Of a stretch of 54,828 bases of DNA, positions 1 through 10,464 are shown piece after piece (positions within the stretch are counted from its first letter, which is position 1; every line of letters begins with the position of its first letter). Source of the DNA: Streptomyces sp. NBC_01233 (GTDB lineage: Bacteria > Actinomycetota > Actinomycetes > Streptomycetales > Streptomycetaceae). The notes below the pieces were generated by a model. That model worked only from the letters and a program-made list of their open reading frames with translations, did not search any database and was not told the DNA's origin. The stretch spans positions 1 through 54,828 of the forward strand of contig NZ_CP108516.1 in the NCBI RefSeq assembly GCF_035989305.1, read 5' to 3'. The translations under genes were made by a program, and so were the position numbers.

Positions 1-10
1 GCAGCAAAAG

Positions 11-35
11 AGCCCGATCCGTTTCGAATCGGGCT
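11..35. terminator. hairpin, probable terminator of a gene left of the window
   Basis: A perfect 8-bp stem (AGCCCGAT / ATCGGGCT) closes a 9-nt loop and is followed by TTCG. No gene is seen between it and the window edge, so the gene it would serve lies outside. Confidence 0.5.
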
Positions 36-306
36 TCGTCACGGTGTCCCGAAGCCCAACCAGAAGGGCCGGGCGCGTAGGCGCTCGGCACTCGTGGTCG
101 GCAGGTCCTCGGACTTCGCTGCCACCAACGACTACAGGAGGCCAGCACACCGTTGCGGGACAGTACTCGGATTCACACCGGATTCCCCTGCGACGTCCAA
201 CAGCCAGATTCTACAGGCCTCGTTGTCCATCAACCGATGCTCGCCAACCCGAGCGCCCAGCCGCCGACCCTGCGCCGGCGGGAGCGCTCCGCGTAGGGGG
301 CGAAGG
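36..306. other. no confident gene
   Basis: Several frames are open here, but none has a ribosome-binding site or a composition distinct from its shadow frames. I see no convincing gene between the left-edge hairpin and the hairpin behind the secreted-protein gene. Confidence 0.5.
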
Positions 307-327
307 GGCCGGCCAGGCGGCCGGGCC
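307..327 (-). terminator. GC-rich hairpin downstream of the secreted repeat protein
   Basis: Two GGCC blocks on each arm pair around AGGC, with one bulged G. It starts 14 bp beyond the stop codon of the minus-strand gene, so it is probably its terminator. There is no U-run on that strand, which is common in Streptomyces. Confidence 0.5.
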
Positions 328-340
328 TTTCTCGCCCGCC

Positions 341-1114
341 TCATTCGACCGGTTGCACGATCTCATGCCCGAGCACTGCTACGACGACAGCTAGCGTGCA
401 TTTTGCACCCGGGATGAATTCCCAAACCACCTTCTCCTTGTTACCCTGCCAATCCACGATGATGGCACTTGCCTTGGACGTGACCTCGATGACCTTGCCC
501 CCCGGGCCAAGAACCGAGTGCAACGCGAATTTGGTGCACTCGACCACCGAGTTCGCAACCCGAACAGCCTGCTCTTCGCTAGGCGAAGGGTTTTGCTGAG
601 TGCCTTCAAGCTTGTGGAATTTTCCGCAGTAGCCGTCGGCCCAAATCCCTCCAGCGTTCTTGCATGCCTGCTGATCGTTTACTTCGCCCGCACCATTGCC
701 AGGTTGCTTGATGGTGTCACCGGGCGGCTGACTGCCGGTGTCGGTGCCCTGCGGGTGGCTGCCGTCCTGCTGGGTGGTGTCGGTGCCCTGCGGGTGGCTG
801 CCGTCCTGCTGGGTGGTGTCGGTGCCCTGCGGGTGGCTGCCGTCCTGCTGGGTGGTGTCGGTGCCCTGCGGGTGGCTGCCGTCCTGCTGGGTGGTGTCAG
901 TGCCCTGCGGGTGGCTGCCGTCGGTCTGGCCGCCGGTGTCGGAACCGCCGGTGTCAGTCCCGGACTGGTCGCTGCCGGAATCGTCCTGCTCTGCCATCGC
1001 TGGGGCTTGGGGGGCTGCCGTAGCGATGGTTGCACCTGTTGAGAAAGAAAGCGCTGCAGCCAAGCATGATGCGCCGATATAAGTAGAAATTCGGTGACGC
1101 TGAGTGGTGTTCAT
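341..1114 (-). CDS. secreted protein with Gly/Ser/Thr/Gln-rich tandem repeats
   Basis: About 257 residues. I chose the ATG at 1114 because it follows an AGGGAA ribosome-binding site and begins a Sec-type signal peptide: charged MNTTQRHR, then a hydrophobic stretch to an ATAAPQAPA cleavage region. After a Gly/Asp/Ser linker come four exact copies of the 13-residue unit DGSHPQGTDTTQQ and a partial fifth. The C-terminal ~110 residues form a small domain with four Cys (QACKNAGG, DGYCGK, VECTKF, GAKCTL), possibly two disulfides, and a hydrophobic end. I do not recognise the C-terminal family. The likely location is outside the cell or at the surface, with the repeats acting as a flexible stalk. 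It is a single gene with its own terminator. The function is unknown. Confidence 0.8.
   Translation of the reverse strand: MNTTQRHRISTYIGASCLAAALSFSTGATIATAAPQAPAMAEQDDSGSDQSGTDTGGSDTGGQTDGSHPQGTDTTQQDGSHPQGTDTTQQDGSHPQGTDTTQQDGSHPQGTDTTQQDGSHPQGTDTGSQPPGDTIKQPGNGAGEVNDQQACKNAGGIWADGYCGKFHKLEGTQQNPSPSEEQAVRVANSVVECTKFALHSVLGPGGKVIEVTSKASAIIVDWQGNKEKVVWEFIPGAKCTLAVVVAVLGHEIVQPVE
740..895 (-). repeat. four exact 39-bp tandem repeats inside the secreted-protein gene
   Basis: Units run 740-778, 779-817, 818-856 and 857-895, base-for-base identical, with a diverged partial copy at 896-928. Identity at the DNA level, including synonymous positions, points to recent expansion by slippage or recombination, so copy number probably varies between strains. 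Confidence 0.95.
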
Positions 1115-1561
1115 GATGGTTCCCTGTTGAAAAAAAGCGACTTCGGTCCATGCGGACTTGACTCGCAGTTCCTGAGGGAAACCACTTTCACTGGGGAAGC
1201 GTGGACAGGAGCCAGTCCCCATACACCCCATCCTTCACCTCGTAACTGCTGGTGGCAAAGGAATCCGGCCGCCAATTTCACTGAGTGTTCAACTACATTG
1301 AAGTAGCGGCGCTTGCTCGCAGCTGGCCTCCCTTGTTGAACGGGCGTGTTGGACATCGGAAGTGGACTCCGGCCGCGAGTGTCACAGTCCCGCCGCCTCT
1401 GTCCATGAACCGATCCGCTTCCGCACACACCCCGCGACACGCCCGGGAGCTGGATTCCGGGGTCAGCTTCGGTGTCCACAAAGGGTGTTCATGAAGTCCC
1501 GGCGTGCAGGAAGGCAGGGACCCCGGTTTCTGTACGGTGACGGGCATGAGCAATTGGACCT
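1115..1561. other. intergenic, promoter region of the secreted protein
   Basis: About 450 bp between the secreted-protein start and the 3' end of the XRE regulator. No convincing gene. It must carry the promoter of the minus-strand secreted-protein gene, but I cannot assign -35/-10 boxes with confidence. Confidence 0.5.
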
Positions 1562-1582
1562 GTTAGACCCAACGGGTTCATC
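1562..1582 (+). repeat. 21-bp near-palindrome, site A
   Basis: It reads GTTAGACCC, AAC, GGGTTCATC. The left arm matches the family consensus (GTTAGACCC, 3 bp, GGGTCCAAC) and the right arm is degraded. It overlaps the last bases of the XRE regulator gene. Related sites lie at 9883, 13681, 16485 and 17818. Confidence 0.55.
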
Positions 1583-2822
1583 AAGCGAGGGCGTCGCCGA
1601 GCAGCCGGCGCGGGGCGCCGTCCAGGTGCTGGTGGAGCAGTTGGGCGCGGGAGTGCACCAGGCCGCTCCGGTACGCGGGCGGTAGCCGGTCGTAGACGGC
1701 GGCAGCCATCGCTGCGGCCGCGCCCGGATCTCCGTCGACCCGCAGACAGGCGGCGGTGTCCATGGCGACCAGCGCGCGGGTCATCACCGATGGCGAGACC
1801 GTGAGGGCCAGGGCGTCGTCCTGCGCCCGGTACGCGGCGCGGGTGTCGCCGAGCAGCGTGTACGCCTGGGACAGGTGGACGTGGTGCTTCTGGGGCGGGT
1901 AGCCGAACCAGGTGTCCCTCGACTCGGGGCCGTCCAACTGCTCGGCCAGCGTGCGGACGTCGTCGACCGCGCGGCGGGCGCCGGGGACGTCGCCGATGGC
2001 GGCCAGGGCGCGGGCGTTGACGGCGGCCGCGAGTGCGGCCGCGCCGGACGGGCGGGCGCCGGCCTCCCGGCGGGCCTGCGCGGCGATGCGGGCGGCCTGC
2101 CCCGGGGCCCCGTAGTTCAGGCCGACCATGGCATGGCGGCCGAGCACCCAGGAAGTCATCCGCCGGTCCCCAGACTCGCGGGCCGCCCGCGCGGCGGTGG
2201 CGAACCAGCGGTGCGCGTCGGCCTGGTCGCCGCGGTCGTGCTGGACGATCGCCACCAGGCCGGAGATCCCGGCGGCCGTGCGCGCCAGGTCGGTGCGGTC
2301 CCGTGCGGGGTGGGGCCGGCCCAGGACGGTGGCGAGGAGCGCTAGGTCCTCACGCATCTCGCCCAGGACCGTGTCGGGCGCCCGTCCGTTGTAACCGCCG
2401 CGGTGCCGCTCGAAGGCGCCCTCGAGGTAGGCGAGGTCCCCGGCGCCGTCGGCGTCCAGGCCGGTGTCGATGCCCTCCCGGGCCTGCGCGATGCCGGGCA
2501 GCACGGCGAACCCCGCCGTGGCCGCCGCGAGGGTGAACAGCTTGCGTCGCTTCACGTCGTCGTCCTTCCTCTGCTGCCTGCGATGCCTCCGGGTGTTGTC
2601 CAGGGCCTGGTCCAGCTGCTCGTCGGTCAGCCCGTAGACGGTGCGGATCGCCGAGCGCCAGACCGGAGTCGGTAATCGCTTCTCGGTCTCCCAGCGCTTC
2701 AGGTTCTCGACCGTGCACACGAGGCCGGCGGCGGTCATGCGCTTGGCCTGCTGCTCGCGGGTCCGGTCCGCCCGCTCCCTGATGGTGCGCAGCAGCTCGC
2801 CGATTCCGTCTGGGCTCACCAT
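1581..2822 (-). CDS. XRE-type DNA-binding regulator with helical-repeat C-terminus
   Basis: About 413 residues from the ATG at 2822 (MVSPDGIGELLRTIRERA). Residues ~5-65 form a Cro/CI-type helix-turn-helix with the usual start (LLRTIRERADRTREQQAKRM) and a tail that includes LKRWETEKRLPTP. A basic linker (RRHRRQQRKDDDVKRRK) and a hydrophobic stretch follow, then ~280 residues of Ala-rich paired helices resembling TPR, which in Streptomyces XRE regulators usually sense a ligand or partner. It is divergent from the peptide/JmjC/kinase genes at 3075-5166 with only ~250 bp between, so control of that cassette is the simplest inference. A longer start at 2879 is possible but has no extra conserved sequence. 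Confidence 0.8.
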   Translation of the reverse strand: MVSPDGIGELLRTIRERADRTREQQAKRMTAAGLVCTVENLKRWETEKRLPTPVWRSAIRTVYGLTDEQLDQALDNTRRHRRQQRKDDDVKRRKLFTLAAATAGFAVLPGIAQAREGIDTGLDADGAGDLAYLEGAFERHRGGYNGRAPDTVLGEMREDLALLATVLGRPHPARDRTDLARTAAGISGLVAIVQHDRGDQADAHRWFATAARAARESGDRRMTSWVLGRHAMVGLNYGAPGQAARIAAQARREAGARPSGAAALAAAVNARALAAIGDVPGARRAVDDVRTLAEQLDGPESRDTWFGYPPQKHHVHLSQAYTLLGDTRAAYRAQDDALALTVSPSVMTRALVAMDTAACLRVDGDPGAAAAMAAAVYDRLPPAYRSGLVHSRAQLLHQHLDGAPRRLLGDALA

Positions 2823-3074
2823 GCCGGGGCCTCCCCTGTCTGGGTGTCGGAAGACCATCCTGGCCCCCCAACGCGGCACCCCGCAGCGGGAATCGGCCCC
2901 CCGGTGCGGCCCTCCCTTCTGGTGTTCCCCGGACCTTCAATGGTCGAACGGAACCGGCCGGGACAACGCCTACAGGGGCTCCCCCTCCGGCCGGTCCCGC
3001 ACTGGGCGCCCGTCTCGCCTGGGGGCGGCGGGCGCCGTCCAGCGCTCCATCCGACACGAGAGAAGGAGTACGTC
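2823..3074. promoter_or_regulatory. divergent intergenic region between XRE regulator and peptide gene
   Basis: About 250 bp that must contain the promoters for both directions. A good AGAAGGAG ribosome-binding site lies at its right end in front of the peptide ATG. I could not pick out a clear -35/-10 pair or an operator repeat by eye. Confidence 0.5.
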
Positions 3075-3170
3075 ATGAACGGTCTGATCCTCTCCAGCCG
3101 CTCCATCAAGGGAGCCGCGACCCGGACCCCCGACGGCGGGGGCACCGGCAAGGGCGACGGCAACGACTGA
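3075..3170 (+). CDS. 31-residue peptide, candidate modified-peptide precursor
   Basis: A short ORF with a strong AGAAGGAG ribosome-binding site. The product begins MNGLILSSRSIKGAA, continues with TRTPD, and ends in a Gly/Lys/Asp tail (GGGTGKGDGND). It has no Cys and several hydroxylatable or phosphorylatable residues (Ser, Thr, Asp, Asn). It has no signal peptide or membrane helix. The stop is 9 bp before the JmjC oxygenase gene, which itself lacks a clear ribosome-binding site and is probably translationally coupled to it. A tiny, well-translated first gene followed by an oxygenase and a kinase is the layout of a RiPP precursor with its tailoring enzymes. That role is inference; a leader peptide for translational control is an alternative. 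Confidence 0.7.
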   Translation: MNGLILSSRSIKGAATRTPDGGGTGKGDGND

Positions 3171-3179
3171 TCGCCGACC

Positions 3180-4352
3180 ATGACCACCGCGATTGACGCG
3201 GCGGTCCGGAGCCTCGGCGGGGACTTCCTCGCCGGGGCTTTCGGCCGCGACTTCCAGCACTGGTCACAGGCCGCCGCAGGGCTGCGCGGCCTGTTCACGT
3301 GGGACGACCTGAACGACCTGGTGGCCCGCCACCGGCTCGATGCCCCGCGCCTGCGCCTGTTCAACGACGGGGAGCAGGTCCCGCCGTACGAGTACCTGCA
3401 CACCTCGGTCACCAAGCGCTCCGAGGTCCGCCACCGGGTCGAACCCTCCGGCCTCCACCGGCAGATCAGCGCTGGCGCCTCCCTCGTCCTGGACGCCGTG
3501 GACAAACTCCACCCCGGCGTCCAAGACCTGGCCGAGGCGCTGGAGAGGCACTTCCGCACCGACGTCCAGGCCAACCTGTACGCGTCCTGGCACCCCACCG
3601 AGGCCTTCGGGATCCACTGGGACGACCACGACACGGTGGTCTTCCAGCTGGAAGGGGCGAAGCGCTGGAACCTGTACGGGGCCACCCGTACGGATCCGCT
3701 CCGCCTAGACGTCGAAGCGCCCGAGAAGCCCGACGGGCCGCCGCTGGCCGAAGTGGTCCTGCAGGCCGGGGACATGCTGTACGTACCGCGCGGCTGGTGG
3801 CACGCGGTGGCCGCCACGCAGGGCCGCTCCCTGCACCTGACGTGCGGCCTGACCCCGGCGACCGGACACCACCTCCTGGTGTGGCTGGCCGGACAGCTCC
3901 TCCACTCCCCCACCCTGCGCGCGAACGTACCGACCGTGGCCGGCCCCGCCGACCGCGCCGCCTACGCCGAGCAGCTGCGCAAGGAGGTCGCCGAGGCGCT
4001 CCACCCTCACGTGGTCGCCGAGTTCGCCGCCTCCATGGACGCCCGCGACCCCGGCCGCCCGGCCCCGTCCCTGCCGCACATCGGCGTCGTCCCCGCCGAT
4101 CCGGAGCTGATCCTGGCCCTCACGACGGCCCGGGCCGCGCTGGAGGGGGCCGACGGGTCGGTGGTGCTGCGCGCCGCCGGACACGAATGGGAGCTCCACC
4201 CCTCCGTCCGCCCCGTGCTGGAGGCCCTGGTCTCCGGCGCCCGCCTCACCTTCGGGGAGCTGGCCGAGCGCTCCGGCCTCACCGTGGAACAGGTCGCGGC
4301 CCTCGCCACCGAGCTGGTATCCAAGGACGCGGCCGCCGTCTCCCACAGGTAG
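3180..4352 (+). CDS. JmjC/cupin-4 family Fe(II)/2-oxoglutarate oxygenase
   Basis: 390 residues. The double-stranded beta-helix core is at ~70-225. The iron-binding facial triad is visible as H146 and D148 (GIHWDDHD) and H208 (GWWHAV). K161 in EGAKRWNLY fits the 2-oxoglutarate-binding Lys of the cupin-4/ribosomal-oxygenase group, whose members hydroxylate protein side chains. The C-terminal ~150 residues are helical and end in a winged-helix-like segment (LTFGELAERSGLTVEQVAAL), also usual in this group. The gene lies between the 31-residue peptide and an APH-type kinase gene (7 bp gap). The likely role is hydroxylation of a peptide or protein residue; the peptide encoded next door is the obvious candidate substrate, by inference only. 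Confidence 0.85.
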   Translation: MTTAIDAAVRSLGGDFLAGAFGRDFQHWSQAAAGLRGLFTWDDLNDLVARHRLDAPRLRLFNDGEQVPPYEYLHTSVTKRSEVRHRVEPSGLHRQISAGASLVLDAVDKLHPGVQDLAEALERHFRTDVQANLYASWHPTEAFGIHWDDHDTVVFQLEGAKRWNLYGATRTDPLRLDVEAPEKPDGPPLAEVVLQAGDMLYVPRGWWHAVAATQGRSLHLTCGLTPATGHHLLVWLAGQLLHSPTLRANVPTVAGPADRAAYAEQLRKEVAEALHPHVVAEFAASMDARDPGRPAPSLPHIGVVPADPELILALTTARAALEGADGSVVLRAAGHEWELHPSVRPVLEALVSGARLTFGELAERSGLTVEQVAALATELVSKDAAAVSHR

Positions 4353-4359
4353 GACCGCC

Positions 4360-5166
4360 ATGTTCGACGCCCCCGCCCCCGCCACCGTCGACCGGATGCT
4401 GACCGCCCAGCAGCACGCCGCCGACCAGTTCGGCCTGCGCGCCACCGGCCGCCGGGTGTGGGGGTACCGGGGCCGGACCCTGTCGGGCGCCGCCGGCCCG
4501 CACTGGCTCCGCGTCGTCTGCGCCGAGGCCGGCACCGAGGGCGGCACGCTGTGGAACGGCCCGTCCACCTCCCGCGCCCTCCCCGCCTCGGTGCCGCGCC
4601 CCGACCTGTTCCGCATCCGGGACTGGACCACCGAGGGCTACGCCTACCGGGCCGAGCTGTACGCCTTCGCCCCCGACCCGATGGTCTCCCCGCGCCCCGT
4701 CCTCGACGAGGACCCGGGCCTGCCCGAGACGTGGTGGAAGGAGATGCGGGCGGCCCTGGACGCCCTCGCCGACATCCCGCCGCCGGCGGACCGCGAGGCC
4801 GTACGCGAGGAGTACCTGCGCCGCGTCATCCCCGAGTTCACCGACCACCAGGTCGAGGACGTCGCCTGGTCCACCGCCCACGGCGACCTCCACTACGGCA
4901 ACCTCACCCGCGGCCCGCACATCCTGGACTGGGAAGGCTGGGGCCGCGCCCCGTACGGCTACGACGCCGCCACCCTGTACGTCTACGCGCTGCTGACCCC
5001 CGAGACGGCCGCCCGCATCCGGGCCCAGCTGGCCCCGGTCCTGGACCGGCCCGAGGCACGCACCGGCCTGCTGACCGTGTGCGCCCAGGTCCTCCAGGCC
5101 CAGGACCGCGTCGACTTCTACGCCGAGCTCGCCGACCCCGTCCGCGAGCACCTGGCCCACCTGTAG
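4360..5166 (+). CDS. aminoglycoside-phosphotransferase-fold (APH) kinase
   Basis: 268 residues, ATG after an AGGTAGGA ribosome-binding site. The C-lobe carries the APH catalytic loop HGDLHYGN (174-181, catalytic D176) and the metal-binding DWEGWG (D190). The N-lobe is divergent: I do not see a clear nucleotide-loop Gly motif. APH-fold kinases phosphorylate antibiotics, small metabolites or, in thioamitide and class V lanthipeptide pathways, Ser/Thr of a precursor peptide before dehydration. Here it is the third gene of an operon with a small peptide and a hydroxylase, so a peptide or hydroxylated-peptide substrate is worth testing. A resistance enzyme is the main alternative. I see no HopA1-like lyase nearby that would complete a known dehydration pair. 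Confidence 0.8.
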   Translation: MFDAPAPATVDRMLTAQQHAADQFGLRATGRRVWGYRGRTLSGAAGPHWLRVVCAEAGTEGGTLWNGPSTSRALPASVPRPDLFRIRDWTTEGYAYRAELYAFAPDPMVSPRPVLDEDPGLPETWWKEMRAALDALADIPPPADREAVREEYLRRVIPEFTDHQVEDVAWSTAHGDLHYGNLTRGPHILDWEGWGRAPYGYDAATLYVYALLTPETAARIRAQLAPVLDRPEARTGLLTVCAQVLQAQDRVDFYAELADPVREHLAHL

Positions 5167-5181
5167 CCGCCCCGCCCGTCT

Positions 5182-5523
5182 CTACGCGGAGTCGACGCTG
5201 CGTCGACCGGCGGCCAGCGTCGGCGGGCCCGAGGCGGAGGGCTCCGACCCGGACCCATGCGCCCGGCGCAGGCCCGGCTGCGGCCAGGGGTAGAACCGGG
5301 ACACCGTGCTGGTCGACCCGTCGAGGTCGACGGCCACCTTGTAGATCACCCTGCCGTCGGCCCAGTCGTGCCGCGCCATCACAGCCCCGTACCGCCACGC
5401 CCCGCAGGACCACACCCGCAGGGCCGGGCGGTCGCCCGCAGGCCAGCTCCAGACCGTGGGCGCGCGCCCGTCCTCGGGCCGCCATGGCCGGGACTCCACC
5501 GGCTCCGTCAACGTCGTGCTCAC
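5182..5523 (-). CDS. small hypothetical protein
   Basis: About 113 residues from a GTG at 5523, with GAGG close upstream. The product begins VSTTLTEPVESRPWRP and is Trp-rich (WSWPAGD, VWSCGAWRYG, ARHDWADGRV). The middle looks like a small beta-sheet domain (VIYKVAVDLDGSTSTVSRFYPW) and the end is low-complexity. I do not recognise the family. It is convergent with the kinase gene (15 bp apart) and divergent from the replication-relaxation gene. Confidence 0.6.
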   Translation of the reverse strand: MSTTLTEPVESRPWRPEDGRAPTVWSWPAGDRPALRVWSCGAWRYGAVMARHDWADGRVIYKVAVDLDGSTSTVSRFYPWPQPGLRRAHGSGSEPSASGPPTLAAGRRSVDSA

Positions 5524-5697
5524 CCCTCGACCGTACGCCCGGACCCCGCGGACTCCCCCGCCAGGTGCTCCGCGTCGTGCTCCGGGCCGTGTTCGACGAA
5601 ACCTGTACGGCTTCCTGTCCTCTTCGCAGGTCACAGTGCCTGTCACGTCAGCGCGCGAGGCGGTGGCGTGCGTCAAGTAAGGACAGGGGAGCGGGCA

Positions 5698-6600
5698 GTG
5701 GAGATGAAGCAGACGCCGGGGGCGTACCGGATGCGGGCGGAGCGCCGGCGCAGGGTGCGCGGCAGCGGGGAGGCCCGGGGCGACGGCTGGATGCGCACGG
5801 AGGCGGACGAGCGTCTCCTCGCGCTGGCGACGAGGTACGGGACGCTGACCCTGCAGCAGGCGGCCACCGCGTGCTGGGGCGGGAGACTCGAGACCGCGCG
5901 CCTGCGGATACGGGTGATGGCGGAGGCCGGGCTGCTGCACCGCTCCGCGGTGATGCGGTGGGCGGGCACCGTCGTGTGGCCCACCGAGCGCGGAGCGCGC
6001 ATCGCGGGTACCGGCCTGTCGGCACCCTCCCGCCCGGGCGAGCGGCTGCTGCACCGCCTGGCCCTCGCCGACGTCGGCCTCGCCCTGGAGGCGGCCGGGC
6101 ACACGGTGCTCACCGAGCGCGAGGTCCGCTCCGCCGAGGCGGTGCCCGGGCGACCGGCGGAACTCCTCGCGGACCTTGGCATCTCCGGAGTGCCCGAGGG
6201 GGCCCGGCGCGGGGAGACCCTCGCGGTCCCGGCCGGTGCCCACGCGGTGCACTGGCCGGACCTGGTCCTGGTGCCGCCCGGTGGCTCCGTGGTCGCCGTC
6301 GAGGTGGAGCTCACCCCGAAGTCCCGCAGCGAGCTGCGGAGCATCCTGCGCGCCTACCTGCGGGCCCGGCGCCGGGTCGTCTACCTCGGGACCGCGCCGG
6401 TTGTGCGCCAGCTGCAGGGGCGCCCCGGCTCGGACGGGCAGTGGGTCGACGGCGTTGCCCAGGAGGCCGGGCTGCTCCCGCCCGGAGGGCCCGACCCGGG
6501 CGCCGACGGACTCCTGCGCGTACGGCCGCTCGTCCTCACCGACCCGGACGTCGCCCGCCAGACTGAGCAGCACGCCAACCGCCACCGTCGCCCTGCATGA
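5698..6600 (+). CDS. replication-relaxation family protein
   Basis: About 300 residues. I start it at GTG 5698 because an AGGGGA ribosome-binding site lies about 8 bp upstream; ATG 5704 is also possible. Residues ~30-110 form a winged helix typical of the Replic_Relax family (LLALATRYGTLTLQQAATACWGG, RIRVMAEAGLL). A paired region follows (HRLALADVGLALEAAG) with the hallmark acidic strand PDLVLVPPGGSVVAVEVELTPKS. Members occur on Streptomyces plasmids and integrative elements and are linked to plasmid replication or transfer, though the biochemistry is poorly defined. It is monocistronic and convergent with the next gene. Confidence 0.8.
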   Translation: MEMKQTPGAYRMRAERRRRVRGSGEARGDGWMRTEADERLLALATRYGTLTLQQAATACWGGRLETARLRIRVMAEAGLLHRSAVMRWAGTVVWPTERGARIAGTGLSAPSRPGERLLHRLALADVGLALEAAGHTVLTEREVRSAEAVPGRPAELLADLGISGVPEGARRGETLAVPAGAHAVHWPDLVLVPPGGSVVAVEVELTPKSRSELRSILRAYLRARRRVVYLGTAPVVRQLQGRPGSDGQWVDGVAQEAGLLPPGGPDPGADGLLRVRPLVLTDPDVARQTEQHANRHRRPA

Positions 6601-6601
6601 A

Positions 6602-6619
6602 CTGATCGGTGCCGATCAG
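6602..6619. terminator. palindrome between convergent genes
   Basis: CTGATCGG, TG, CCGATCAG: perfect 8-bp arms immediately after the replication-relaxation stop codon and overlapping the stop of the opposing gene. It could end transcription in both directions, although the loop is too short for a stable hairpin tip. Confidence 0.45.
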
Positions 6620-7041
6620 CGCTCCACGCCGGTGACGGCCTCCACCATCGCGGCCTGGACGAGCCGGAACTCCCGTTCGTCCAGCGCGTCCAGGACCGTC
6701 TGCAGGGTGACGGGCGCTGCACCGACGAGGGAGACGGCGATACGCAGCATGGCCATCTCGCTGCGCGAACCCTGGATCATGACCTTGTCCGTCAGGGGGA
6801 ACTCGCCCATCAACCGCTGGGAGATCCCGCTCCAGTTCATGCTGGGGCGCGTACCGGTGCGGTCGATGTAGAGCAGGTGGTCGGGCTGGGGGTCCTGGTC
6901 GTCCAGGAACCGCCGCAGCCAGTACCCGTCACGGTGCTTGCCGAGGAGGCGGGTGGCCGCGCGCATCCATTCGTTGCCCACGCCCTGGAGCAGGCCCTGG
7001 GCGAGCTCCATGCCCGTCGTGCCCTCGCTGGTCAGCGTCAC
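6616..7041 (-). CDS. hypothetical protein
   Basis: 141 residues from a GTG with GGGAGAG upstream. It looks like a soluble mixed alpha/beta protein: an amphipathic N-terminus (GMELAQGLLQGVGNEWMRAATRLLG), a basic/aromatic middle (KHRDGYWLRRFLDDQD) and a helical C-terminus (LQTVLDALDEREFRLVQAAMVEAVTG). No transmembrane segment, Cys pair or recognisable motif. I do not know its function. Confidence 0.65.
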   Translation of the reverse strand: MTLTSEGTTGMELAQGLLQGVGNEWMRAATRLLGKHRDGYWLRRFLDDQDPQPDHLLYIDRTGTRPSMNWSGISQRLMGEFPLTDKVMIQGSRSEMAMLRIAVSLVGAAPVTLQTVLDALDEREFRLVQAAMVEAVTGVER

Positions 7042-7399
7042 CGATCTCTCCCTGGTCTCGATGGTCGGGCCGGGTCGGAGTCGGGGCCGGCCCCGACCAC
7101 ACTGTGTCCGGCTGCGCCCCGCAGGCCGCGCCGTACACGCCGACCGGCCTTGCCGCTGGCCGCAGCCTCACCCGTTCGCCACAAAAGGCCGTCTGAGCTG
7201 CGGCTTCACGAGAGCACAACCCAGGACACAGGAGGGGACACGGGGACACGGGCGCCGTTGCCAACAGGGACGGCCCGGGGTGGATAACGAGCAGCTCACG
7301 CCCGTTGCCACCCCGGTATCCACTCCCGGCGCGGTGCTGGCGGCGGAGTCCCCCGGGGGGACGGCTGTCCGGGCACGGTCCGCGAATCGCGGATGGTGT
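7042..7399. other. intergenic, with a palindrome at 7379-7393
   Basis: About 360 bp without a convincing gene. At 7379-7393 TCCGCGA, A, TCGCGGA forms a perfect 7-bp inverted repeat just downstream of the minus-strand small membrane-protein gene, a plausible terminator for it. Confidence 0.5.
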
Positions 7400-7639
7400 C
7401 TACCTCGTGGACACGACCGGAGCCGGGGCCGGTGTGGCGGGCGCTGGCGACTGGCCGAACCCAGGGGCAAGCAGAAGCGCGAGGAGCGTCGCGACCGCTG
7501 CGCCGGAGACAATCGAGGTTCCCAGGTCGCCGCGGCCGAGCGCACCGTGCGTACGGGCGGTGTACTTGAAGACCGAGAAGCCGACGACGTAGCCCACGAC
7601 GATGAGCAGGGCCGCCAGCGGCGCGATCTGGATGGTCAC
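7400..7639 (-). CDS. small two-helix membrane protein, paralogue of 54499-54750
   Basis: 79 residues from a GTG. Two hydrophobic segments (IAPLAALLIVVGYVVGF and SIVSGAAVATLLALLLAPGF) flank a conserved loop (KYTARTHGALGRGDLGTS), with a Pro/Ala tail. The first ~50 residues match the protein at 54499-54750 almost residue for residue. The two copies sit near the two ends of the window in the same orientation, so a role specific to this element or its transfer is likely. The exact function is unknown. Confidence 0.8.
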   Translation of the reverse strand: MTIQIAPLAALLIVVGYVVGFSVFKYTARTHGALGRGDLGTSIVSGAAVATLLALLLAPGFGQSPAPATPAPAPVVSTR

Positions 7640-7765
7640 GACGTTCTCCTCGCTATGTCCGCCTGAATCGGCGGTCCGTCTGTGCCGAGTGGCACGACGT
7701 CATGTGACCAACAGGGGCATGGGAGGAGCGATCCCGGAACTTCGCGAGGTTCTACGCTCAGCCGT

Positions 7766-8851
7766 ATGGCGAGGACCACGAGCACGGCGATGCGCGAGCT
7801 GATGGAACTGTCGGGGGCGTCGCAGGAACAGATCGAGAGGTGGCAGGAGCAGAGGTTCCTGCCGCGGTTCCCCCGTGCGTACGCCGGGGGCGGAGGGAGC
7901 GAGTCGGCGCTCAGCGAAGAGATCATCGAGCGGGCGCGGCTGCTGGCAGCTCACGCAACGCAGGGCGCCTCGACGATGAGCCCTATCTCGTTGATCGCCA
8001 CGCTGTCCGAACCGGATGTCGCTCTCCTACGCGAAGCGCTCATCAAGAACCTGACCACGCTCCGCCACCGCGTAGGCATGGACGTCCGAGCCGCCTCACC
8101 ACAGGAAGCCACGATCGCCCGGCAGACCGCCGCCGACCGGAAGGCCAAGCGCCAGGGCTCTTCTCGAAGCCTGAAGAACATCGCAACAGGCCCGGTCAAA
8201 GAGGGATCGGCGCTCCAGTTCGTTGAATTGATGACGCTGCTCAACCGGGACACGGACGAGGAGATCGATGCCGGCGACCTGGAGGAGGCGGTCGACATCG
8301 TGGTCGGGCACATCAAGGAGAACCTGTCCCGCCGGATCGGTGTCCCTGTCGGTCTCCTGCCGCCCGACATGGAGGCCCGCCTCAGGTCCGATGCCCGCCG
8401 ACAGCTGCTTGGCGCTCCAACGTTCCATGACATGTGCGACCTGGTTCGCGCCGTGCCTGAAAGCCTGCTGATACGGGCGTGCCGCCTTGTTCCTCTGGTC
8501 CGGCGAGTTCAGATCGCAGCGGTGGAGTCCGCGAGGCTGGCCCACGCACTGCACGCCGGGACGCTGACGGCGGAGAAGCTCGGCGTATGGCACGACTTCC
8601 CCATGCCGTACGACAACGTGCAGCGGATGGAGGCACACCCGATGTGGGAGCGCTGGGGGAGCAAGGTGATCGAAGCCGGAGCCGTGCGCGACACCGGGGA
8701 CGGTGTGCGCATCGTGGTTTGCCTGCAGAACCCGGCCATCCTGGATGAACTGGATGCCTACACCGACTTCCTGGCGTCCTTGATGCCAGCGCAGGCCTTC
8801 CACCGACTGGCGTTCAATCCGCCCGGACCGGGAACCCTGACGATCAAGTGA
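7766..8851 (+). CDS. MerR-like helix-turn-helix protein of unknown role
   Basis: 361 residues from the ATG at 7766; the 28 codons upstream in frame look non-coding. There is no good ribosome-binding site, so the mRNA may be leaderless. Residues ~10-45 (LMELSGASQEQIERWQEQRFLPRFP) resemble the MerR-type DNA-binding fold, followed by a Gly/Ser linker. The remaining ~300 residues are mostly helical and soluble, with no motif I can name. It is followed by a hairpin and the recombinase-associated repeats. It may be a regulator or a DNA-recognition factor working with the neighbouring recombinase; neither is shown. Confidence 0.7.
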   Translation: MARTTSTAMRELMELSGASQEQIERWQEQRFLPRFPRAYAGGGGSESALSEEIIERARLLAAHATQGASTMSPISLIATLSEPDVALLREALIKNLTTLRHRVGMDVRAASPQEATIARQTAADRKAKRQGSSRSLKNIATGPVKEGSALQFVELMTLLNRDTDEEIDAGDLEEAVDIVVGHIKENLSRRIGVPVGLLPPDMEARLRSDARRQLLGAPTFHDMCDLVRAVPESLLIRACRLVPLVRRVQIAAVESARLAHALHAGTLTAEKLGVWHDFPMPYDNVQRMEAHPMWERWGSKVIEAGAVRDTGDGVRIVVCLQNPAILDELDAYTDFLASLMPAQAFHRLAFNPPGPGTLTIK

Positions 8852-8857
8852 CGACCC

Positions 8858-8969
8858 GTTTCATAGGTGGTCCCTTATGAAACACCCGGGCCCAAGAGGC
8901 CCGAGCTGGGCGTTTCTTGTTTCATGGATCGTTTCAAAGTGCTGGACTCTTGAAACGTACACATGAAAC
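8858..8969. repeat. nested GTTTCA/TGAAAC inverted repeats, candidate recombination or operator sites
   Basis: Two 26-bp units with GTTTCA, 14 bp, TGAAAC lie at 8858-8883 and 8931-8956. Around the second, a further outer pair (GTTTCAT at 8919-8925, ATGAAAC at 8963-8969) creates a two-tier inverted repeat. They sit directly upstream of the serine recombinase start, the usual place for resolvase res subsites, which also act as operators of the resolvase gene. Confidence 0.7.
8887..8903 (+). terminator. hairpin after the MerR-like gene
   Basis: CGGGCC, CAAGA, GGCCCG: perfect 6-bp stem, 36 bp beyond the stop codon and between the two 26-bp GTTTCA units. Confidence 0.5.
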
Positions 8970-8978
8970 ACTGGCGGG

Positions 8979-9857
8979 GTGAGTGAGTACCAGCGCGTTG
9001 AGGCGCACGCCTGTCCCATGTCCACCTGCGCCGCCCCGGCCGGCTCCCCGTGCCGCACGACCAAGGGCAAGGTGTCGATCCAGTACCACACGGCCCGCTT
9101 CCGGCTCGTGCCCGCGCTCGCCAAGGCCCTGAACGTCCCGACCCCCGCCGTACGCAAGCCCGGCGCGGCCTGGGTGGAGCTCCCCCGACCCGCCACCGCC
9201 GGCACCGAGCCCGTCGGTCACATCCGCATCGGCTACGCCCGGGCCTCCACCGCACGCCAGTCCCTGGACACCCAGCTCGACTCCTTCGCCGCCGAGGGCA
9301 TCACCCGCGTGTTCTCCGAGAAGATCTCCACCCGCGTCGCCCAGCGGCCCGAACTGGAGAAGGCCGTCGCCCTCGCCCGCGAGCTGCGCACCTCCGGAGC
9401 CCGGGTCACCCTCGTCGTCCACGAGCACAAGCGACTCGGGCGCGGCATCGAGCTGGTCACGCTCGCCCAGGACCTCAAGGCCGCCGACGTCGGCCTCCAA
9501 TTCCTCACCGGTGAGCTCCAGGGCTCCCACGACCCCTCGGGCGTCGTCTTCAACGTGCTGGCCGCGCTGTCCGGCATGGAACGCGAGTACATCCGCGACC
9601 GCACCCTGGAGGGCCACGAGTCCGCCCGCAAGCGCGGCAAGGCCATCGGCGGGCCCACGGTCACCAACTCCGACATGCTCACCATGGCGCTCCAGATGCG
9701 GGCCGAGGGCGTGAGCCTGCGCGACATGGCGCCCCGGCTCGTCATCACCACCGGAGCGAAGAAGGGGCAGCACCCTTCCCCGCCCACCATCATGCGGATG
9801 CTCCGCGAGCACGACGACAGGGTGGCCGCGGACGCGCTCGCCGCCGAGACCAGCTGA
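8979..9857 (+). CDS. serine recombinase (resolvase/invertase type) with N-terminal Cys-rich extension
   Basis: 292 residues, GTG start. Residues 10-40 form a small Cys/His unit (ACPMSTCAAPAGSPC ... QYHTAR), probably zinc-binding and absent from classical resolvases. The catalytic domain starts at ~82 with GYARAS (catalytic S90, R88) and QSLDTQLD. It continues with the helix E/R region (KRLGRG, SGMEREYIRDRTLEG). The C-terminus has a helix-turn-helix of resolvase type (GVSLRDMAPRL, SPPTIMRML). All core residues I can check are intact. It probably resolves multimers or cointegrates, or inverts a segment, acting at the repeats just upstream. A perfect 20-bp inverted repeat ends the unit. Confidence 0.88.
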   Translation: MSEYQRVEAHACPMSTCAAPAGSPCRTTKGKVSIQYHTARFRLVPALAKALNVPTPAVRKPGAAWVELPRPATAGTEPVGHIRIGYARASTARQSLDTQLDSFAAEGITRVFSEKISTRVAQRPELEKAVALARELRTSGARVTLVVHEHKRLGRGIELVTLAQDLKAADVGLQFLTGELQGSHDPSGVVFNVLAALSGMEREYIRDRTLEGHESARKRGKAIGGPTVTNSDMLTMALQMRAEGVSLRDMAPRLVITTGAKKGQHPSPPTIMRMLREHDDRVAADALAAETS

Positions 9858-9870
9858 CCGGTACAGATAG

Positions 9871-9924
9871 ACGTCAGCCCCGGTCAGACCCATTGGAACC
9901 AACAGGTCTGACCGGGGCTGACGT
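9871..9924. terminator. perfect 20-bp stem-loop carrying site B in its loop region
   Basis: Arms 9871-9890 and 9905-9924 are exact complements over 20 bp around a 14-nt loop. It lies between the serine recombinase stop and the stop of the opposing GNAT-like gene, so it is a strong candidate bidirectional terminator. The 21-bp repeat site B (9883-9903) spans the end of the left arm and the loop. Confidence 0.8.
9883..9903 (+). repeat. 21-bp repeat, site B
   Basis: GTCAGACCC, ATT, GGAACCAAC. It matches the reverse complement of site D (16485-16505) at 19 of 21 positions. Confidence 0.65.
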
Positions 9925-9936
9925 GTGTCCGGAGGA

Positions 9937-10464
9937 TCAGCGGGGTGGCGGGTCGAGCGGCCGCGCCCGCTCCGGTCCGTGCGACCTCGCGGCGCGCATG
10001 TGCTCGCACCGATGGGCATCCCGGGGGAACGCGACCCCCGTCGACGCGGCGAAGGCCGGGAAGAACGCCTGGGCGTCCTCCGACTGCGGGGTCGTGGTCC
10101 AGGCGTACCCGTCACGGCCGCGCAGGGCGAAGCGCACCATGCGGGAGCCGTACCCGTGGCGCTGCCACGGACCGGTGACCCTGATCTTCACAATCAGCCC
10201 GAGGCGGCACACCTCGCAGGCCTGCCAGACCAGTCGGGCGAAGTCGTACCCGTCCGGCGCGCAAGCCCGGACCCCCTGCATCCCGGCCGGGTCACCGGGC
10301 GGCTTGTAGCACCAGGTCTCGGTCTCGGGGTCGACCCTCCACTCCAGACTGTTCCACGGGACGGCGGCCGGCGCTGCGGGCGCCTGCGCGTCCCGCCCGT
10401 GGAAGGCGTCGACCAGGCGCTCCCACAGGGAGCCGCCGGGCCTGGTCCTGTTCGACGACCCCAC
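9937..10464 (-). CDS. GNAT-like acetyltransferase-fold protein
   Basis: 175 residues from a GTG at 10464, two bases past the stop of the upstream DUF6166 gene. The C-terminal half shows a GNAT core: a beta-strand (GLIVKIRVTGPW), the acetyl-CoA pyrophosphate-binding signature QRHGYGSRMV, then YAWTTTPQSEDAQAFFPAF, which matches the usual fourth strand and helix. The N-terminal ~60 residues (LWERLVDAFHGRDAQAPAA, Trp/Cys-containing WCYKPPGDP) are specific to this protein. The substrate is unknown. It is co-transcribed with the DUF6166 gene. Confidence 0.65.
   Translation of the reverse strand: MGSSNRTRPGGSLWERLVDAFHGRDAQAPAAPAAVPWNSLEWRVDPETETWCYKPPGDPAGMQGVRACAPDGYDFARLVWQACEVCRLGLIVKIRVTGPWQRHGYGSRMVRFALRGRDGYAWTTTPQSEDAQAFFPAFAASTGVAFPRDAHRCEHMRAARSHGPERARPLDPPPR

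Follow-up and report, generated by a model that had tools for sequence, protein, structure and literature searches.

A candidate RiPP-type cassette pairing a small peptide with a JmjC oxygenase and an APH-fold kinase in Streptomyces

Does a 31-residue peptide encoded directly upstream of a JmjC oxygenase and an APH-fold kinase in Streptomyces sp. NBC_01233 serve as the substrate of these enzymes? The genes lie on a contig of 54,828 bases (contig C3 of the 10.3-Mb, four-contig genome G000), the whole of which we refer to as the window. We observed that the peptide belongs to a family, here called class I, that is rarely encoded without a JmjC oxygenase and an APH-fold kinase and is mostly accompanied by an aldo/keto reductase (AKR) as well. 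The genes probably form a compact cassette of the type that produces ribosomally synthesized and post-translationally modified peptides (RiPPs), in which the JmjC enzyme would hydroxylate the peptide core and the kinase would phosphorylate it. A preliminary description of the locus had suggested a RiPP-like pathway, and this proposal is supported by the conservation of the peptide beside the JmjC gene and by a winged helix of the RiPP-recognition kind in the JmjC protein. The features of the locus are as follows.

1581..2822, minus strand: NsdA-family helix-turn-helix (HTH)-TPR regulator (NF053720, 128.1 bits, cut-off 75), divergent and within the moving block
2823..3074, no strand: putative divergent promoter region, assigned from the sequence, with the ribosome-binding site AAGGAG at 3063-3068
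2949-2961/2987-2999 and 3005-3019/3022-3036: imperfect inverted repeats in the promoter region
3075..3170, plus strand: precursor-like peptide of 31 residues, MNGLILSSRSIKGAATRTPDGGGTGKGDGND (ATG at 3075, stop at 3168-3170)
3180..4352, plus strand: JmjC (ribosomal-oxygenase-like) 2-oxoglutarate (2OG) oxygenase (PF08007, 8.4e-27)
4360..5166, plus strand: APH-fold kinase of 268 residues (PF01636, 27.8 bits, cut-off 23.2; 2.7e-6), with HGD...N and LDWE motifs intact

The peptide with its strong ribosome-binding site, 9 bp from stop codon to JmjC start codon, is arranged as first described; the interval given at that time began at 2823 and includes the divergent promoter region. Three elements lay beyond that earlier view: the reductase of most relatives, the position of the regulator inside a moving block, and a second peptide class. 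No sigma-70-like promoter or terminator was found in window 2700-5700, and no RNA family reached its gathering score in window 1-10000.

Conservation of the peptide and its place beside the oxygenase

We aligned 21 class I sequences, including that of the window, and the alignment predicts a leader-like part (3075-3131) followed by a core-like part, DGGGTGKGDGND (3132-3167). The leader-like part is hydrophobic and carries the pattern G-L-[IVL]...R.I..A, and the core is rich in Asp, Gly, Ser, Thr and Asn. Homologues that are about 48% identical have an open reading frame (ORF) of 40-56 residues upstream on the same plan, with a leader G-L-x-x-x-R-R-x-I-x-A-A-R-x-R and a core S-D-G-G-G-T-G-K-S-D-G-N-D. 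By sequence conservation, and with this predicted division, the peptide has the short, gene-encoded leader and core expected of a RiPP precursor. Neither the window peptide nor four others gave a Pfam or NCBIfam match over the cut-off.

To judge whether the gene is real, we compared ten near-identical loci, namely the window and nine plasmids. Variation in the peptide is confined to in-frame insertions or deletions and a few substitutions, and the ratio of nonsynonymous to synonymous polymorphism (pN/pS) is 0.32 for the peptide, 0.20 for JmjC and 0.42 for APH. The final 12 codons, which make up the core-like part, show no amino-acid change across the ten loci. A deletion in a further near relative (L004; L numbers denote loci) leaves just the end of the peptide gene. 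Longer in-frame starts are present in the window, but in some relatives they fall in a different reading frame.

Next, a profile of the peptide was run against 392 Streptomyces genomes. This gave 57 matches of at least 47.6 bits, distributed over 53 genomes, and the next match scored 23.2 bits. A JmjC match follows within 300 bp on the same strand in 54 of the 57 cases, and in 53 of these 54 the two profile matches are 15-37 bp apart. The three exceptions are two loci with JmjC fragments just downstream (L100, L102) and one peptide that stands alone (L101). Conversely, 15 of the 70 JmjC matches compared have no peptide match; they include several that are fragmentary or form the second half of a split match, the deletion copy, a locus of genome G357 with neither peptide class (L103) and a group scoring 270-330 bits, also with neither class (L104-L109). 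Other genera also carry this cassette; examples are Actinomadura (L013), Nocardiopsis (L018) and loci L135 and L137-L142.

The preliminary description had proposed a search of neighbouring genes and an alignment of the peptides, and had named a small ORF lacking conservation as the outcome that would speak against it. Instead, the short ORF, JmjC and APH recur together, and the peptide is kept in sequence, position and frame beside JmjC in several genera. At the level of sequence, these data confirm that the peptide gene is real and that it was correctly recognized. A chance ORF without a product is almost certainly not the explanation: shuffles of the stretch gave an ORF of 25-60 residues with a strong ribosome-binding site in 77 of 2000 cases, so a lone ORF is weak evidence, but conservation at other loci is not, and the explanation is already contradicted by sequence conservation, by indels that keep the frame, by purifying selection and by the fixed position of the ORF.

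Altered copies of class I were also seen. Two large plasmids contain the class I core sequence only, with neither a start nor a JmjC match (L068 and L069, 5980-6054); this looks like a remnant, and transposase genes are annotated nearby in L068. At L112 (4373-8076), the class I JmjC gene is split by about 2.5 kb of intervening DNA with a 586-residue ORF, and the peptide, AKR and APH genes flank it. Apart from these copies, a JmjC gene of Kibdelosporangium (L026, 5684-7844) lies downstream of a 43-residue ORF (...NLSDGAVGDSGETNDGGYGGE), and the opposite strand carries an APH relative.

The oxygenase, the kinase and a reductase that follows one core residue

Both putative tailoring enzymes encoded with the peptide have intact catalytic residues, as expected for a RiPP pathway. 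The H-D-H triad noted earlier for the oxygenase corresponds to H146, D148 and H208 and is joined by K161, and the HGD loop noted for the kinase corresponds to H174-G-D176, with N181 and D190. Of the 66 class I loci, 61-66 retain the individual kinase motif residues, the remainder being unaligned except for one change of N to D, and all 46 class II loci (described below) retain them. A sequence search returned no solved relatives of the kinase.

The JmjC protein combines a JmjC domain and a winged helix with the HxD...H and 2OG-binding Lys residues of the ribosomal oxygenase family. Its nearest solved structures are NO66, MINA and YcfD, which resemble it in whole-length fold, in iron and 2OG residues and in the winged helix; they differ in that identity is 17-24% in structural alignments and that the cassette JmjC protein is tied genomically to a small peptide. 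The winged helix (residues ~311-388, nt 4110-4343) resembles RiPP recognition elements (RREs), and its beta3-alpha3 arrangement matches solved RREs, although the winged helices of ribosomal oxygenases match better and some unrelated ones match equally well. This winged helix ends the JmjC protein and is a putative leader binder. The PF20514 model exceeds its cut-off in one relative (L020) and falls under it in the window (16.1 of 22). Two families were matched in PHROGs, one of JmjC proteins with unknown function (4.4e-25) and one of regulators, and the window peptide and the kinase had no match. A phage origin was considered and rejected, as the search gave just weak matches to JmjC proteins of cyanophages (identity no higher than 27% in the eight listed of 11 matches).

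We then surveyed the reductase at 89 class I loci, five of which are places fetched twice. Broken or incomplete loci (L015, L016, L067, L100-L103) and repeats of L070 and L098 (L117, L118) were omitted. An aldo/keto reductase lies between JmjC and the kinase at 71 of the 89. Among the 18 loci without it, the core is readable in 15, and all 15 have Gly in the motif G-K-G-D-x-N-D; the others are L004 and its duplicate L077, which have no peptide, and L205, which has Thr and is truncated by a contig end. Among the 71 loci with the reductase, 69 have Ser or Thr at this position and two have Gly (L141, L142). This correspondence between the presence of the reductase and Ser/Thr or Gly suggests, from sequence comparison, that the enzyme acts for that residue. 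In a tree built from 78 JmjC rows, loci that lack the reductase fall into one clade of 15 rows, which contains the window, apart from L011, which nests among reductase-bearing loci (100/99). By our reading of the tree, the reductase was probably lost at least twice, because L011 stands apart from that clade; an automated count gave one change, but it left out the reductase-bearing rows, to which no group had been assigned.

The moving block, the divergent regulator and other JmjC loci

The window is very probably a Streptomyces plasmid, since its nearest relatives sit on Streptomyces plasmids. The peptide, JmjC, kinase and divergent regulator genes form one block of 3.6 kb that moves between plasmids. 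Seven of the nine plasmid loci resemble the window in DNA sequence between the stop codons of the regulator and the kinase, with edges that agree to about 20 bases; in L057 and L059 the similarity extends somewhat past these edges. The flanks outside the block differ among the nine. Another contig of the host (G000:C2, 70.5 kb) carries a remnant of the window cassette, 91% identical, consisting of the JmjC tail and the first portion of the kinase (L119, 5794-6454).

The divergent gene, previously described as an XRE/TPR-type regulator, is of the NsdA family by its score above the NF053720 cut-off. Using a model built from 8 of its 47 matches, we found a divergent NsdA-type gene at 21 of 29 class I loci and 26 of 46 class II loci (47/75 in total); the window and its near-copies account for 10 of the 21 matches in class I, and one class I match is weak (L066, 29 bits). 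No such gene was found at 14 JmjC loci without these peptides, at two more loci of that kind, at 10 class V loci (searched in a 1.5-kb flank only) or in six larger class V loci. The host genome has 24 rows of the family in 10.3 Mb, so about 0.003 would be expected by chance per 3-kb stretch. With home-made gene calling, we listed the neighbouring families common to at least three loci among 20 of class I or 10 of class II. In class I these further comprised a DUF5753 HTH regulator, IS4/5-type transposases and DUF6879, and in class II a NUDIX protein. No dedicated leader peptidase or exporter, which a RiPP pathway need not encode, was among them.

The second peptide class emerged from 62 distinct JmjC loci of lower score, chosen among the matches listed together with the one on the host chromosome. 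At 46 of the 62 we found class II peptides with their own oxygenase and kinase (AKR relative at 45 of 46, APH relative at 46 of 46), and the remaining 16 have neither class. The peptide model, built from nine of the 46 sequences, has a leader L-L-[VI]-A-V-x-x-L-x-x-x-x-D-R and a core S-D...G-[GD]-D-G, and the class I and class II profiles align with each other (87.6%, E 3.5e-6). The host chromosome itself has a class II peptide, an APH gene and a divergent NsdA-type regulator (L120, 7102-8989; G000:C1, near 4,021,100); JmjC is matched only in part at this locus, which also gave no AKR match.

Other small peptides were observed upstream of JmjC genes. Class V peptides (L143-L152, L154-L157, L219-L224) have about 35-38 residues (...EVTSRDITAGGDSDGTDSSSDFI), and the six larger class V loci have a conserved large adjoining gene (a prolyl oligopeptidase in L222, the one scanned) and a FhuF-C-domain gene. 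Homology of class V to class I was unsupported (hhalign 1.4%), and the match to class II was weak (hhalign 35%, E 4e-4). In class III (L111, 4665-9580; L125), a different small peptide precedes JmjC, and in L111 genes for an arginase, a radical SAM protein and another JmjC protein come after the pair. In another context (L114, 4874-6284), 112 bp separate a JmjC gene from an upstream 46-residue ORF that has a ribosome-binding site. Elsewhere in the window, an ORF at 341-1231 (minus strand) has five DGSHPQGTDT repeats after a signal-peptide-like stretch, as read from its translation, and an ORF at 5698-6600 (plus strand) weakly matches a MobC-type model (NF041423, 24.4 bits, well under its cut-off of 200).

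A proposed pathway, its alternatives and its relation to known systems

In the RiPP-type pathway that we favour, the winged helix of the JmjC protein would hold the leader while its JmjC domain hydroxylates a core residue, with the invariant Asp and Asn as the best candidates. The kinase would phosphorylate the new hydroxyl or a core Thr or Ser. In most relatives the reductase would act at or near the Ser or Thr that precedes D-x-N-D, and the clade of the window, with Gly in that position, would have lost it. The NsdA-type gene may control the operon. Trimming and export may be carried out by host enzymes, because no genes for these steps were found conserved nearby.

The kinase could instead provide self-protection, inactivating a mature product made by JmjC with or without the reductase. 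APH-fold enzymes commonly inactivate antibiotics, and the class II kinase gene is opposite in strand to JmjC at 42 of 46 loci. In class I, however, the kinase gene comes after JmjC in the same orientation, often with a match that overlaps that of AKR, and it is retained where AKR is missing; we also know of no antibiotic activity. We consider this role possible but unlikely. A signalling loop, in which the divergent regulator reads the modified peptide and the enzymes tailor the signal, concerns the purpose of the product and is compatible with the RiPP-type pathway. The location of the regulator within the moving block, its frequency beside class I and II peptides as opposed to none of the 14 JmjC loci without these peptides, and the low chance expectation all argue for it, and inheritance of the regulator with the other genes makes a signalling product more probable. 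Nevertheless, an NsdA-type gene is missing from the stretch examined at 28 of the 75 loci, neither an exporter nor an importer was found, and the regulator has no convincing solved relative, so that we regard the loop as an unlikely, tentative reading. It is doubtful that the wider joint claim holds, namely that a large superfamily of actinobacterial peptide pathways, not described before, is built round an RRE-bearing JmjC hydroxylase, that the phosphorylated and hydroxylated peptide is a signal, intracellular or exported, read by the co-inherited NsdA-type regulator, and that plasmids and chromosomes both carry a communication system based on such peptides.

Given its nearest solved structures, the JmjC protein might act on a ribosomal protein, with the peptide as its regulator or inhibitor. 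This is improbable: relatives are patchy (any relative at E 1e-20 in at least 173 of 392 Streptomyces genomes), class I JmjC is almost always tied to the peptide and is found on plasmids, and the kinase, mostly with the reductase, accompanies it. A phage-defence or toxin-antitoxin module would suit the patchy, mobile and compact cassette but is very improbable, and an ordinary defence system was rejected in the absence of a PADLOC match at E 0.01 for any of five proteins.

Among described systems, biphenomycin RiPP clusters are reported to have a JmjC or cupin-like enzyme (BipG/BpmG; PbsQ) that adds a hydroxyl to one residue of a ribosomally made precursor (PMC12707348, PMC12257519), a likeness to the cassette. 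BipG targets ornithine in an F-R-F core and is partnered by MNIO, arginase and radical SAM proteins. The cassette differs: neither an F-R-F core in class I peptides nor MNIO or arginase partners among the window genes were found, and a kinase and an aldo/keto reductase take their place here. Fusions of JmjC (PF08007) with RRE-like folds are described in fish and algae, with the closest bacterial homologues in RiPP-like contexts (PMC12710340). These share the JmjC and RRE-like combination; compared by description only, the available text of that report names no precursor family, kinase or reductase.

The kinase has its own parallel. In thioamitide and class V lanthipeptide pathways, an APH-fold enzyme is encoded beside the RiPP precursor, a likeness that we draw from general knowledge and not from sequence comparison. 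Those pathways involve Cys and Ser/Thr in the core, whereas the window peptide has no Cys and the shared neighbours include no further gene family of that kind; of the class I peptides whose ends were listed, only L005/L076 shows a Cys.

JmjC enzymes in RiPP pathways are already known, and the literature searched yielded no description of the peptide families, of their kinase and reductase partners or of the regulator. We did not find the gene set or the peptide motifs described in that search, which covered few subscription journals. If our reading is correct, about one in seven sampled Streptomyces species (53/392) would have a class I cassette of three or four genes, small enough for expression in one piece. 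RiPP chemistry would gain hydroxylation together with phosphorylation, as well as an aldo/keto reductase tied to one peptide residue, and modified peptides would be linked, in a way open to testing, with NsdA-type regulators in Streptomyces.
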